Assembly (NCBI GenBank): GCA_903872505.1
Contig: CAIQKV010000013.1
Location: forward strand, 1-51,764
Reading direction: 5' to 3'
Length of the DNA stretch: 51,764 nt
Source: an uncultured Opitutia bacterium
Lineage (GTDB): Bacteria; Verrucomicrobiota; Verrucomicrobiia; Opitutales; Opitutaceae
Shown: piece after piece, positions 7,337-13,918 of the stretch
How the letters are laid out: each line of letters opens with the position of its first letter
How positions within the stretch are numbered: position 1 is the stretch's first letter
The notes under the pieces: generated by a model
Database searches by the model: none
What the model was told of the DNA's origin: nothing
Seen by the model: only the letters and a program-made list of their open reading frames with translations
Position numbers and translations under genes: made by a program

Positions 7337-9946
7337 CTACCGCCACTCGTGGCGGGGATAGCGGCGGGAGAGCTCGGTTTTGATTTTGGGGTACTGCTCG
7401 CGCCAGAAATTGGTCAGGTCGTCGGTCACCTGGATCGGGCGTTGGTTGGGCGCAAGCACCTCGATTTTCACGGGCACGCGGCCGTGGCCGAGGGTGAACT
7501 TCCCCTCGACACCATAAAGCTCCTGGATGCGCGCGCTCAGCACCGGCGGGCCCTCCTTCGCGTACGAGATCCGCGACTTGCGGCCGTTGCCCATCGTCAG
7601 CTTTTCCGGCAGATAGTCATCGAGCACAGCCAGTTGCTCGGCCGTCAGCCAGTCCTTGAGCACCGGCATGACCGGCTTGTCCTTGATGTCACGGGCGCCG
7701 AGTTCACCGTAGCAAATCTGCTCGATCAGGGTCGCGCGGTCGGCGTCCGTGAGCGGATTCACCTCCAGTTCGGGGAACCACTCGGCCAGCCGGTTCACCC
7801 GAATGATCCACTGCTCCACCGTCTCGTCCCAGGCCTCCAGCTTCAACCGGCCGGCAAGCACTTCCTTCGTCAGCAATGCGGCGGCCTCGTTGAGCGGCGC
7901 CTCGTCGCTGCTGGTCTTCGCCTCGAGCACCAGGTCGCGAAAACGCCGCTCGCGCCGCGAGACCACGCGCTTCATCGCCTCGTCGTAGGTCACCGCCCGC
8001 ACCTCGCGATAGTCGTCCGGGAAAATCTCCTTCAACCAAGCCTCCTCGATCGCGGTCGCGAGCGACAGCAGCGTGTTTACCTCGCCACCGCGGCCGCCGA
8101 CTTCGCTGATCTCAGCCGCCACGAACAGCGGCGCCTTCTGGATGCCGCTCTCCCGCGCGAGCACGCCCTTGCGGTTGTGCACCAGCGCGCAGCGCAGCGT
8201 GCCGCCATCGAGCCGTTTCGCCAGCTGGTCGGAAAACCCAGCCAGCACGCATTTGCGGATCTCGGCGCCGTCCGTGCGGCGCTCACTCACGTCGAGGCCC
8301 TCCTTTTCGGCGATCGCGAGGAACTGCTCGAACAGCGGCCCGACCTGGCGCGCCCCCTGCGCGTGCAGCCCCAGCCGCCGGCATGCATCCAACGAGTAGT
8401 TCGCCTTGTCGGCAAAACGCCAGGCGCGCATCAGGAGGAAAAAGTCGCTCTCGTGCTCCTCACCCAGCGTGTCCTCGCGCGCCTGTTCGACCTCCTTCGA
8501 CCCACCGCGCAGCAGGAAATTCCGCCCCTGCGTGAGCGCCGCCATCAGCGCCACCGGCCGGACGCAGCCCCGTTCCTGTGCGGCGACAAACATCCGCGCA
8601 TACCGCGGGTGGACCGGGAAGCGGAGCATCGTCCGGCCGAGAGGGGTGATGGTGCCACGACTGTTCGTTGGAGATGCGGCGCCCTCGCCGCGTCCACCCT
8701 GCCGCGGCGGGGGCGCCGCGGCTCCATTTGCCAGCGCCCCGAGGTCGGCCAGCAGCGTCTCGGCGCGCTCGAGCGACCTCGGCTCGGGCTTCTCCAGCCA
8801 GGGGAAATTCGCCACGTCGTCGATGCCGCTCGCCTTAAGCGTGAGCACCACCTCGGAGAGGTCGAGGCGCTTCACCTCGGGCAGTTCCTGCGGAGCGCGC
8901 TGGCCGTGCTCGCGCTCGGTCCACAGCCGCACGCACACTCCGGGCGCGGTGCGTCCAGCCCGTCCCGCCCGCTGGTCGGCGCTGGCGGCGGAGATTTTTT
9001 CGATCAGGAGCGTGTTGATGCCGCGGTGCGGGTCGTAGCGGGCAATGCGCGCCAGGCCGCAATCGATCACGGTCGTGACACCGTCGATGGTCAGGGAGGT
9101 CTCGGCGACGTTCGTGGACACGATGATCTTCCGCGCCTCGTAACGCGCCACCGCCCGGTCCTGCTGCTCGGGCGGCAGTTCGCCGTGCAGCGGAAACGTC
9201 ACGAACTCCCGCAACGTCCGCGTGCCTTGGATGGCCTGCACCGTGCGGCTGATCTCGTACGCACCAGGCATGAAGACTAGCAGATCACCAGTCGTCTCGC
9301 CGGCCACGCGTTCACACTCGCGTGCGGCGACCTCCCACACCGGCTCGTTATCGAAATTTACGGACTTCGGCAGGTATTCGACCCGCACCGGGAAGCTGCG
9401 GCCCTGCGAGACCAGGACCTCGCACGGCGCCAGGTAGCCCTTCAGCAGGCCCGAATCGAGCGTGGCCGACATCACGATCAATTTCAGGTCGGGCCGCGTG
9501 GTCTGCTGGAGTTGCAGGGCGCGAGCCAGCGAGATGTCGCCGTAGAGATGACGCTCATGGAACTCGTCGAAAATCAGGACGCTGATGCCACGCAACGTGG
9601 GTTCGAACGACATCTGCCGGAGCAGGATGCCTTCGGTCACGAATCGGATGCGTGTCTGCTCGCTGACGCGGGACTCCAGCCGGATCTGGTAGCCGACCAC
9701 GCCGCCCAGCGGAGTGCCCTGTTCCTCCGCCACCCGCTTCGCCAGCATCCGGGTCGCTAGCCGCCGCGGCTGGAGCACCACCACCTCACCCCGCTCGCCC
9801 AAGAGGCCGTGCTCCAGCAACATCTGCGGGATCTGGGTGGATTTGCCGGACCCGGTGGGCGCCTGCACGATCAACCGCCCCGCGGCGCGCAGCGCCGCCA
9901 GGATGGCCGGCTCGAGCTCGTAGATGGGCAATTCGCGCGGGGACAT
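7337..9946 (-). CDS. hrpB: ATP-dependent RNA helicase HrpB
   Basis: 869-residue DExH-box helicase of the HrpB type. The Walker A motif GSGKS is at residues 32-36, DEFHER at 127-132 (the HrpB variant of DEAH), SAT at 160-162, and the motif VI region QRAGRAGR lies near residue 330. The HA2 and HrpB-specific C-terminal regions follow, ending in SRRYPRHEWR. Length is close to the family norm of about 820. Residues about 406-425 (NGAAAPPPRQGG and following) are a low-complexity insert encoded by a palindromic repeat at 8673-8730, which has a sister copy after typA. The biological substrate of HrpB is poorly known. Transcription is divergent from the putative large RNA that begins near 10121. Confidence 0.95.
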   Translation of the reverse strand: MSPRELPIYELEPAILAALRAAGRLIVQAPTGSGKSTQIPQMLLEHGLLGERGEVVVLQPRRLATRMLAKRVAEEQGTPLGGVVGYQIRLESRVSEQTRIRFVTEGILLRQMSFEPTLRGISVLIFDEFHERHLYGDISLARALQLQQTTRPDLKLIVMSATLDSGLLKGYLAPCEVLVSQGRSFPVRVEYLPKSVNFDNEPVWEVAARECERVAGETTGDLLVFMPGAYEISRTVQAIQGTRTLREFVTFPLHGELPPEQQDRAVARYEARKIIVSTNVAETSLTIDGVTTVIDCGLARIARYDPHRGINTLLIEKISAASADQRAGRAGRTAPGVCVRLWTEREHGQRAPQELPEVKRLDLSEVVLTLKASGIDDVANFPWLEKPEPRSLERAETLLADLGALANGAAAPPPRQGGRGEGAASPTNSRGTITPLGRTMLRFPVHPRYARMFVAAQERGCVRPVALMAALTQGRNFLLRGGSKEVEQAREDTLGEEHESDFFLLMRAWRFADKANYSLDACRRLGLHAQGARQVGPLFEQFLAIAEKEGLDVSERRTDGAEIRKCVLAGFSDQLAKRLDGGTLRCALVHNRKGVLARESGIQKAPLFVAAEISEVGGRGGEVNTLLSLATAIEEAWLKEIFPDDYREVRAVTYDEAMKRVVSRRERRFRDLVLEAKTSSDEAPLNEAAALLTKEVLAGRLKLEAWDETVEQWIIRVNRLAEWFPELEVNPLTDADRATLIEQICYGELGARDIKDKPVMPVLKDWLTAEQLAVLDDYLPEKLTMGNGRKSRISYAKEGPPVLSARIQELYGVEGKFTLGHGRVPVKIEVLAPNQRPIQVTDDLTNFWREQYPKIKTELSRRYPRHEWR
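8673..8730. repeat. REP-like palindromic element, copy 1, inside hrpB
   Basis: 58 bases built of two GC-rich hairpins (GCGGCGCCCTCGCCGC, then GCCGCGGCGGGGGCGCCGCGGC with trimmed ends) and ending GGCTCCAT. The copy at 13953-14010 has the same length and is nearly the same sequence on the opposite strand. Both keep the GCGGCGCCCTCG and GGCGCCGCGGCTCCAT blocks. The element sits in frame within hrpB and adds an Ala/Pro/Gly/Arg-rich stretch. Confidence 0.7.
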
Positions 9947-10120
9947 GGACGGCGGCCAAGCGTCGGGGTGCGCGGCCGCGAGGCAAGGCCGCAGGTGAAC
10001 AACCGGTGAGCCAGATTATCCCCAAGTTATTCACCGTTCCGCTTGGTGAAGAAGTTGTGAAGAACAAAGCCTTTCCTTCACCCGCCCAAGTTACAGCTTC
10101 GTGACGTTCCTTGATAGAAC
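9947..10120. promoter_or_regulatory. Divergent control region between hrpB and the putative large RNA
   Basis: The region holds two adjacent inverted repeats: TTCACC/GGTGAA at 10030-10035 and 10045-10050, and GTGAAG/CTTCAC at 10057-10062 and 10076-10081. A promoter-like site for the plus strand follows, with a weak -35 TTACAG (10091-10096), an 18-base spacer and an extended -10 TGATAGAAC (10112-10120). This would start transcription near 10126. The repeats lie where a regulator could act on both directions. Base matches were seen by eye; function is inferred. Confidence 0.45.
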
Positions 10121-10972
10121 AGTCGCAGCGCGGCGGCCTGAAAAACCCGCCGAGAGCACGACTGGGATAATCCCGGGCGACCGGGGAATGGTCGGTGGCA
10201 GCTGGTGCCGCCGTCCCCTTCAGTCCGCGTTAGCGGATTGATAGGCAGATATCACCAGCTCCTCTGGCCGGAGTCGTGTCCGGTCAGTTTTCCACGAATC
10301 AGGAGCTGAGCGGCCAGGCGCGATCAGAAACCGCGTTCAAGCCGAGTCAGGCCCACGGGCCGTTTCGACCCGTGCGCCGACACAGTTACCCCAGAGGGTT
10401 ATGGTTGCTACTGTGCAGACCAGAACGCAGTCGCGTTTCCCGGCGGGACAACCCCCGCCAAAAGGCCCGGTTCGCTCACACGAGCAGGGCGCGCAAGGGA
10501 GAGGCGGCGGCGGGGAGTGAGCGGGCCCGGCAAAGCCCGTCAACCTCCTCAATGGGGCAGCGTGAAAAAGCACGCCGCCACACTGCAAAAGCGAACGCAA
10601 CCTGAGAGTTAAGAGGTCAGACCCGTAACGCAGGGCCAACGGCCAGCCAAAAGCTGGCGCCGTCCCCGTGGTAACGGTGCCGACGCGAAGTAAGATTGCA
10701 GACGTGTCCGCACCACGTCCGGCGCGCCGCTCCCGGCAGGGGGCGACCGAACTGGGCGAAGAGGCCTCACTCAAAAGATCCCGACCGGCAACGGTCAGGA
10801 CGGTCCCGCCATGAGACCGAAACATCCGCATGCCGCGGAGAGTGGCGTCGGGAAGCACACCGCCCGCGAAAGCGAGCGCGCCCAAGCGTGTGCCACCGGG
10901 AAAGAGCGCGTGGCGAACGCCCACCCCCAAATTTGGCCCCGGGACCGCAAGGTTCCGGGGCCTTATTTTTTT
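10121..10972 (+). ncRNA. Putative large structured non-coding RNA (about 850 nt) with intrinsic terminator
   Basis: No credible protein is encoded here: the open frames on both strands give Arg/Gly/Ala-rich translations with no domain. Local hairpins run through the whole stretch, for example 10121-10125/10159-10163, 10164-10167/10171-10174, 10193-10200/10206-10213 inside 10183-10187/10214-10218, 10221-10228/10233-10240, 10257-10263/10301-10307 enclosing 10265-10272/10279-10286, 10354-10359/10369-10374, 10381-10386/10410-10415, 10424-10428/10433-10437, 10442-10447/10454-10459, 10556-10564/10571-10579, 10639-10647/10653-10663, 10701-10706/10714-10719, 10783-10787/10792-10796 (GCAA loop), 10825-10829/10835-10839, and 10855-10860/10888-10893 enclosing a GAAA-capped stem. 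Loops are A-rich, as in folded RNA. A promoter-like site precedes the stretch and a strong terminator ends it. I could not match it to RNase P RNA, tmRNA, SRP RNA, 6S or rRNA. The size is in the range of the ornate large RNAs (OLE, ROOL, GOLLD), but I cannot assign it to any of them. Confidence 0.6.
10935..10972 (+). terminator. Strong Rho-independent terminator
   Basis: A 12-bp stem, GGCCCCGGGACC with GGTTCCGGGGCC (one G-U pair), is closed by a GCAA loop and followed by TTATTTTTTT. No coding sequence precedes it on the plus strand, which argues that it ends the non-coding transcript. Confidence 0.9.
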
Positions 10973-11090: not shown

Positions 11091-11164
11091 GTAGGGGCGC
11101 AGTCTTGCTGCGCCCTCTTGTCGTTTACGAGCTTCAGACGGGCGCAGCAAAACTGCGCCCCTAC
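11091..11164. repeat. Twin-hairpin inverted repeat overlapping the RDD gene stop codon
   Basis: Two 25-base arms (11091-11115 and 11140-11164) are inverted copies with one mismatch, separated by 24 bases. Each arm is itself a hairpin: GGGCGCAG and CTGCGCCC around 5-base loops. The right arm covers the stop codon of the RDD-protein gene at 11161. Twin GTAGGGGCG-type hairpins look like REP-type mobile repeats. The element could also act as a transcription barrier between the convergent RNA and RDD gene. Confidence 0.75.
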
Positions 11165-11973
11165 GCTTTGATGACCACCGTGCCCGCGATGCGGTCCTCG
11201 ACCGCCTGGCGGTTGGGTTCCCAGAGCAGCTTGAGAAAGCCGATGAGGCCCATGGCCACGCCGGCCACGTAGCCGCCGTTGCGGATGAAGGCGTCGAAAT
11301 AGGTCAGCGGCGTGCCATTGATTTTCACCGCCCGCGTGCCCAGCAGGCGCTTGCCCAGCGTGCGGCCGTTCCAGGTGCCGGCGAGCAGCGTGAAGTAGAG
11401 TCCCGACCAGCCGAAGGTCACACCCAGCGCCCGCGTGAACGCCCGGGCCTGCGTGACCCAGGAAGCGCCCGTGGCCTGCCGCTCCCGGATCTCGTCCTTC
11501 AATTGGTCGACCTGCGCCTGTAGCCGGGCATTGGCCGAGTGCAGGTCGGACCAGTTGGGATTGGGCGGCACCGGGACTGTCTCCCTCATCGCCGCGCTTT
11601 CGCTGTCTCCGGTCAGCGCGGCAAGGTTGAGCTGGCTGGAACGGAGGAGCGATCCATGGCCCAAGGCCAACACGGCCAGCAGGACCACAAGGGCGCCCAG
11701 CGCACGGCAAATCCAGCGGAAAGTCTTCATTACCAACAGTACTGACGGCGAGTTGCCCAGCAGCACGATGAGCAGCACACCGGTGCCCAGCGCCAAAAAT
11801 GGCCGGGACAGAAACGAGAGCAACCCGACCACAACGAGGTCCACCAAGATCGCGGCGAACCGCCGCCAGGGCTCCGCCAACGGTTGCCCGAGCACGGTGG
11901 GAACCACCGTAAGTGTCTCCGCCGTAACCTTCCGCCCAGCGCTGGGCGCCGGCTGTACCGTCTCTGCTGCCAT
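11161..11973 (-). CDS. RDD family membrane protein
   Basis: 270 residues. The first hydrophobic pair follows WRRFAAILVDLVVVG, with the arginine and aspartate that name the RDD family. A coiled-coil-prone soluble stretch lies around residues 140-165 (LHSANARLQAQVDQLKDEI). The second half carries GRTLGKRLLGTRAV, the second RDD hallmark, then two more hydrophobic segments and a short tail RQAVEDRIAGT. RDD proteins are integral inner-membrane proteins, some linked to ion transport, but no substrate can be read here. The last codon and stop lie within a twin-hairpin repeat. The gene is convergent with the putative large RNA. Confidence 0.8.
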   Translation of the reverse strand: MAAETVQPAPSAGRKVTAETLTVVPTVLGQPLAEPWRRFAAILVDLVVVGLLSFLSRPFLALGTGVLLIVLLGNSPSVLLVMKTFRWICRALGALVVLLAVLALGHGSLLRSSQLNLAALTGDSESAAMRETVPVPPNPNWSDLHSANARLQAQVDQLKDEIRERQATGASWVTQARAFTRALGVTFGWSGLYFTLLAGTWNGRTLGKRLLGTRAVKINGTPLTYFDAFIRNGGYVAGVAMGLIGFLKLLWEPNRQAVEDRIAGTVVIKA

Positions 11974-12097
11974 GCAGCCAGAGAGCCTGCCGGAGCCCGC
12001 CGCGCAAGAACTGATTCATCGCTCCCTTCCGCCTTGCATTCACCCCCCCCGCTCAGCACTTTCTTCTTTTTTCCCAAGAAAGAACGTGTCCGCGCCC

Positions 12098-13918
<1,821 letters not shown>

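Follow-up and report, generated by a model that had tools for sequence, protein, structure and literature searches.

A MISL RNA gene in Opitutaceae: a fuller fold and DnaA-box-like sites in the promoter region

The MISL locus and its occurrence

Between hrpB and a gene for an RDD-family membrane protein, the window (the whole 51,764-base stretch of DNA analysed) carries at 10106-10972 of its forward strand the gene of a large structured non-coding RNA, complete with a promoter region and a terminator of its own (Table 1). A single Rfam match at gathering score was returned for the entire window, and it is MISL (RF03079), recovered by cmscan at 525.6 bits, almost twice the cut-off, over model positions 1-751 of 751 and hence not truncated. 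The assignment to this family is firm. The initial annotation had proposed an undescribed ornate large RNA of Verrucomicrobiota; ornate, large and of Verrucomicrobiota it is, but this clear match to a known class means that the RNA is already catalogued and hence not undescribed. What looks new is the fuller fold and the promoter region with its DnaA-box-like sites. OLE, ROOL, GOLLD, HEARO, RNase P, tmRNA, SRP, 6S and group I/II introns gave no Rfam match at gathering score in the window; with MISL as the sole match, the earlier dismissal of RNase P, tmRNA, SRP and 6S RNA holds.

A protein-coding reading was rejected, the indels breaking the frame: of 906 indel runs counted against those aligned relatives with an identity of 70% or more (76 of 136), 836 (92%) have a length not divisible by three. 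The folding energy, -417 kcal/mol, is lower than that of every one of 20 dinucleotide shuffles (mean -365; z -5.9; 0/20 as low), and the cmscan structure places 175 pairs inside the window, 163 of them canonical. Together with the covariation described below and the Pfam-confirmed flanks, the indels and the folding score bear out the original reading of a large structured non-coding RNA between hrpB and the RDD gene.

Table 1. Features of the MISL locus and its immediate context (window coordinates; "cells" refers to the 137 aligned sequences, "new sequences" to the second set of 22)
Feature	Coordinates	Strand	Evidence
hrpB, divergent upstream gene (context)	7337..9946	-	Pfam HrpB_C 130.3 bits
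Double DnaA-box-like site, forward	10016..10035	+	TTATCCCCA (10016-10024), TTATTCACC (10027-10035)
Double DnaA-box-like site, reverse	10045..10064	-	TTCTTCACC (10045-10053), TTCTTCACA (10056-10064)
Sigma-70-type promoter region, about -35 to -8	10070..10100	+	weak in window, clearer by eye in relatives
5' hairpin P0a (GTTC/GAAC), probable RNA start, outside Rfam model	10106..10120	+	512/530 cells paired
5' hairpin P0b, outside Rfam model	10121..10163	+	outer stem 10121-10125/10159-10163 tested: 578/667 cells paired, 148 double-change cells; new sequences 87/100
MISL RNA core, RF03079	10165..10921	+	525.6 bits, cut-off 274.6
Pseudoknot PKA, 5' hairpin loop with core, weakest of the six	10112-10116/10250-10254	+	615/669 cells; one pair with double changes; pair 10115-10251 E 0.027; new sequences 88/110
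Pseudoknot PKB	10274-10278/10293-10297	+	661/678 cells; pair 10277-10294 E 0.0013; new sequences 100/107
Long-range helix PKC	10202-10206/10419-10423	+	683/685 cells, 35 double-change; new sequences 106/110
Long-range pseudoknot PKD (GGUUGC/GCAACC)	10403-10408/10597-10602	+	786/822 cells; pair 10405-10600 E 0.0002; new sequences 130/132
Pseudoknot PKE (CUGCAA/UUGCAG)	10583-10588/10696-10701	+	787/821 cells; pair 10587-10697 E 0.012; new sequences 123/132
Pseudoknot PKF	10807-10811/10843-10847	+	685/685 cells, 68 double-change; new sequences 110/110
Intrinsic terminator, GCAA loop, T-rich tail	10935..10972	+	12-bp stem 10935-10946/10951-10962; 1369/1481 cells paired, 256 double-change cells; two pairs E 0.0002-0.0003; new sequences 171/199
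RDD-family membrane protein gene, convergent downstream (context)	11161..11973	-	Pfam RDD 66.7 bits
typA/bipA, approximate start (context)	12080..13918	+	Pfam GTP_EFTU 196.3 bits, BipA_C 149.7 bits

Surveys found MISL in 44 of 95 relatives, in 31 of the 387 genomes sampled from the phylum and in 94 of 384 from the class, three sets that overlap, and each time in 0 of 14 named control genomes. A conserved 24-base motif retrieved at least 118 genome-contig stretches, each also matching the MISL profile; among the matches listed, the titles name Verrucomicrobiota groups except for one 'Proteobacteria' MAG (L194). On re-search with laxer filters MISL was still unfound in 37 of 37 relatives, a lack of match alone being no proof of absence. 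Of 14 Opitutaceae in which MISL was not found, five keep hrpB next to typA without MISL in between; for the remaining nine, a search of the 6 kb preceding typA did not find hrpB. One MISL-less chromosome is the 7,317,842-bp contig G016:C1. Three genomes have a second full-length match on another contig (G057:C30, G231:C33, G402:C5); these second copies, with clearly lower scores in two of the three, may be bin contamination.

The neighbours of MISL vary among lineages. In a protein search of 160 deduplicated loci, many of them too short to tell, hrpB preceded MISL in 64 and typA followed in 59. Where the locus is long enough (66 loci), 31 have both genes and 40 have either. Another lineage has before MISL a lipoprotein-like protein without Pfam match (24 loci) and an M23 peptidase (22), and after it a cysK-like PLP enzyme (19) and rho (19). 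According to a crude ORF caller, 105 of 132 loci have a divergent gene as their closest upstream neighbour, and in 45 of 136 the gene that follows MISL is encoded on the other strand. In the window itself, the terminator and the convergent RDD gene separate MISL from typA. Retention of promoter and terminator while the neighbours change is most simply understood as the mark of a free-standing, trans-acting RNA. As a separate observation, a REP-like inverted repeat (GTAGGGGCGCAG...CTGCGCCCCTAC) lies at 11091-11164, between MISL and the RDD gene, where Rfam returned microRNA matches only, far below cut-off.

MISL reportedly stems from the list of 224 candidate RNAs of Weinberg and colleagues in 2017, and the Salmonella 'MisL' that the literature search brought up is an unrelated protein. 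In the searchable literature the phrase 'MISL RNA' was found in the Ribonanza preprint only (PMC10925082), which, in the part available, uses it as a chemical-mapping example; the word MISL is absent from the main text of two papers on large RNAs (PMC12286853 and PMC11332333). No function for MISL was found in the literature searched.

Fold and ends of the RNA

The fold was examined in a MAFFT alignment of 137 sequences (mean identity 0.63) made without use of structure, from which 21 of 160 loci had been left out for truncation, length or N, and then 2 of 139 as redundant. A second set comprised 22 further sequences, 7 of 29 new loci being omitted as already used. Covariation was scored with our own R-scape-like script, which is not R-scape and takes its E-values from a fitted tail. 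Conservation and covariation were found in the 137 aligned relatives, and the pairing was again conserved in the 22 further sequences. The consensus MISL base pairs are kept and covary among relatives: 19,874 of 23,177 cells at Rfam pairs are paired (85.7%), compared to 37-40% when the pairing is slid (137 sequences), and two Rfam helices fit the alignment poorly (10222-10227/10234-10239 with 54.5%, 10717-10727/10747-10757 with 66%). At E < 0.05, 27 pairs are significant. Nineteen are exact Rfam pairs, one is off by one base, two lie in the terminator, four fall in new helices (PKA, PKB, PKD, PKE), and one, 10807-10842, is unexplained and matches no PKF pair. Eighteen of the 27, those of PKB, PKD and the terminator included, exceed the largest score (141) of 30 simulated null alignments; the PKA, PKE and 10807-10842 pairs score below it.

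Counting of paired cells adds six helices to the fold, extra in the sense of being absent from the cmscan consensus line, whereby Rfam may hold pseudoknot annotation that cmscan omits. They are 92-100% paired in the 137 sequences, compared to 11-61% when slid, and in the 22 further sequences pairing amounts to 80 (PKA), 93.5 (PKB), 96.4 (PKC), 98.5 (PKD), 93.2 (PKE) and 100% (PKF), compared to 0-62% in the slid control. Neither PKC nor PKF has an individually significant pair, and base 10206 of PKC is also paired in the Rfam structure. A control for parallel helices gave 15, as against 39 antiparallel ones, from which it follows that several of the helix candidates not listed here are chance. 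The candidates 10831-10835/10911-10915 and 10362-10367/10812-10817, paired often and hardly varying, were left out. The fuller MISL fold is well supported.

Both ends of the gene reach past the Rfam model. On the 5' side it seems 59 nt longer: PKA pairs the core with the hairpin loop within 10106-10120, so that the RNA probably starts before the model, at this conserved hairpin (P0a), which shows no covariation because it is near-invariant. On the 3' side the gene extends through the terminator, which covaries, and whose 12-bp stem and T-rich tail had been described correctly from the outset. The same is true of the hairpins and of the GNRA loops, GCAA at 10788-10791, GAAA at 10868-10871 and GCAA in the terminator. 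With the six extra helices and the better ends, a better construct for probing or cryo-EM can be made.

Promoter region and DnaA-box-like sites

Upstream regions of 151 loci were anchored at the invariant GTTC (10106 in the window). Relative to it, these loci share a conserved TT at -35/-34, an A at -12 and a T at -8, and the window's own -10 is by eye a poor match. Of the promoter-like site placed initially at 10091-10120, the presence of a promoter stands, at about 10070-10100; the part at 10106-10120 is instead the near-invariant hairpin, and the proposed site therefore overlaps the RNA.

Two double sites that face each other and resemble boxes for DnaA, the protein that starts DNA replication, lie in the window immediately before the promoter. 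The starts within each pair are 11 bp apart. The boxes of the forward pair have one mismatch each to TTWTNCACA; in the reverse pair TTCTTCACC has two and TTCTTCACA one. Five box-like sites with at most two mismatches lie within 9994-10064. Relatives repeat the reverse double-box arrangement at about -65 to -45, with 82 reverse double boxes starting within the single 5-bp bin from -65 to -61 of the RNA start. Over the 151 loci, boxes with at most one mismatch number 386, compared to 35 in shuffles, and occur in 143 loci; perfect boxes number 62 compared to 1.65. Double boxes (at most two mismatches per box) are found in 121 of 151 loci, compared to 4.9 in shuffles and 8.2 in Markov shuffles, 16/151 for the reversed motif and 78/7,285 for flank windows; the other 30 loci are without one. 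Thinning of similar regions leaves 113 of 138, and the double boxes occur in the hrpB/typA context (57/73) as well as in other or unknown contexts (64/78). Start-to-start spacing of same-strand boxes peaks at 11, then 12 bp, which is the spacing preferred by E. coli DnaA, described in the part of the source available as favouring double boxes with a 2-3 bp gap (PMC11317965). The MISL promoter region resembles the E. coli DnaA regulon of that account in its paired 9-mers with this gap, and differs from it in that the MISL boxes precede a large structured RNA in Verrucomicrobiota and often end in C. As judged from sequence, DnaA control of MISL transcription is likely.

Across the 3.55-Mb genome of the window, a loose double-box pattern has 10 matches, three of them, the forward pair included, in 9995-10064; the reversed control pattern has 11, and hence only the placement of those three is informative. 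One more of the ten matches precedes mraZ, with which the division and cell-wall cluster begins. A double box upstream of mraZ was found in 8 of 15 Opitutaceae genomes, with one elsewhere in those loci (sites at G000:C26:27756-27774, L290, and in loci L299-L313). In the stretch before dnaA, TTATTCACA or TTGTTCACA occurs in all seven genomes for which that stretch was fetched, and the boxes there mostly end in A. Two overlapping double-box-like matches were also noted within the mnmG (gidA) gene (G000:C92:5043-5072, L297).

The MISL locus was also considered as oriC, which is not supported by either a GC-skew switch or closeness to dnaA. Mean GC skew at 31 MISL loci is -0.064 before and -0.066 after, with a change of sign in 2 of 31 (6-kb arms), and dnaA is 0.15 to over 2 Mb from MISL in five one- or two-contig genomes.

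Possible roles and alternative readings

We consider it probable that MISL is a free-standing, trans-acting structured-RNA gene with likely DnaA-controlled transcription, tied to replication or the cell cycle. Transcription would start near 10106 from the sigma-70-type promoter and yield a transcript of ~860 nt that stops at the intrinsic terminator, both ends being those suggested by conservation. The RNA would fold into about twenty hairpins that six or more long-range or pseudoknot helices hold together, among them PKA, which docks the 5' hairpin into the core. It would act in trans, most likely by forming the heart of a particle made of RNA or of RNA and protein. DnaA, binding at the two facing double sites just upstream of the promoter, may set the timing, and such timing would in turn link the job of MISL probably to chromosome replication or the cell cycle. 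A more far-reaching version is put forward tentatively, as a possibility: MISL would be a large RNA machine of Verrucomicrobiota under DnaA control, produced in step with replication and together with the mraZ cluster, and its target in trans would be replication, division or translation. Nothing in the analysis of the MISL locus and its relatives points to a biochemical activity.

The double boxes themselves could be read in other ways. The RNA gene might be the same and its paired boxes bind another regulator, one recognising TTRTTCACC. The commonest MISL boxes do have C, not A, at position 9, unlike most of the boxes before dnaA, and the two facing pairs are readable as one large palindrome. 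We nevertheless hold this reading to be rather unlikely in view of the gap of 2-3 bp, as in E. coli double DnaA boxes, of the excess of perfect TTWTNCACA boxes over shuffles, and of the second boxes TGTGCATA or TGTGGACA, which are TTATGCACA- or TTGTCCACA-like and were seen by eye in several of 12 class-level upstream regions (of 29). Less probable again is a box cluster that serves mainly as a DNA site for DnaA titration or replication control, of the type named datA or DARS, next to an RNA unrelated to it. The five box-like sites clustered in 9994-10064 would suit such a function, but the common start of the reverse double boxes at -65 to -61 is what promoter control predicts, and an origin proper is unsupported, GC skew being alike on both sides of the 31 loci and dnaA lying elsewhere.

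Other readings concern the RNA. That MISL is a cis-acting leader or attenuator of typA could be argued from the 59 of 160 loci in which typA follows it in the same orientation; it is very improbable given the terminator and the convergent RDD gene that intervene in the window, the different downstream genes of other lineages and the 45 of 136 loci in which the following gene, by the crude ORF caller, has the other orientation. A mobile element, self-splicing intron or nuclease guide RNA of the HEARO/omega type would fit the patchy presence and the second copies in G057, G231 and G402. It is hardly credible beside a window in which Rfam matches neither an intron nor HEARO, neighbours (hrpB, RDD, typA) that include no nuclease or reverse transcriptase, flanking by both hrpB and typA in 31 of the 66 loci long enough, and phage and plasmid collections free of a match at blastn sensitivity.

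GOLLD and ROOL are often found on phages or prophages, in contrast to MISL with its lack of a match in the phage collection. Like MISL, these two and OLE are large, ornate bacterial RNAs with a function that is poorly or partly understood in the parts of the sources available, which also describe OLE as mainly from Bacillota; at Rfam cut-offs the MISL locus has no match to any of the three. CcnA of Caulobacter, a non-coding RNA that the available part of its source links to the cell cycle (PMC8959179), is a likeness by description, not by sequence. Large structured RNAs of bacteria are few and, where understood, tend to have major jobs. Among the literature searched, the conserved double DnaA-box-like sites constitute the first testable functional lead for MISL, and if the more far-reaching reading of a DnaA-controlled RNA machine is true, MISL would be an ornate RNA of large size that sequence connects directly to the initiator of replication.

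A plasmid- or phage-borne MISL was rejected, there being no match in the plasmid and phage collections at blastn sensitivity and the sole match in a viral collection (IMG/VR) being a contig in which MISL is fused to an RNA phage. This is L210 (IMGVR_UViG_3300034676_001488, 1-2347), in which an internal MISL fragment (about 1-480) is joined to an RNA-phage-like 5' region with a maturation-protein gene (PF03863, E 7e-28). We regard the fusion as a probable artefact, for which template switching or a chimeric assembly is the simplest explanation. Since RNA phages lack a DNA stage, the contig should derive from RNA data, with MISL probably present in them as RNA, which suggests that MISL is transcribed.
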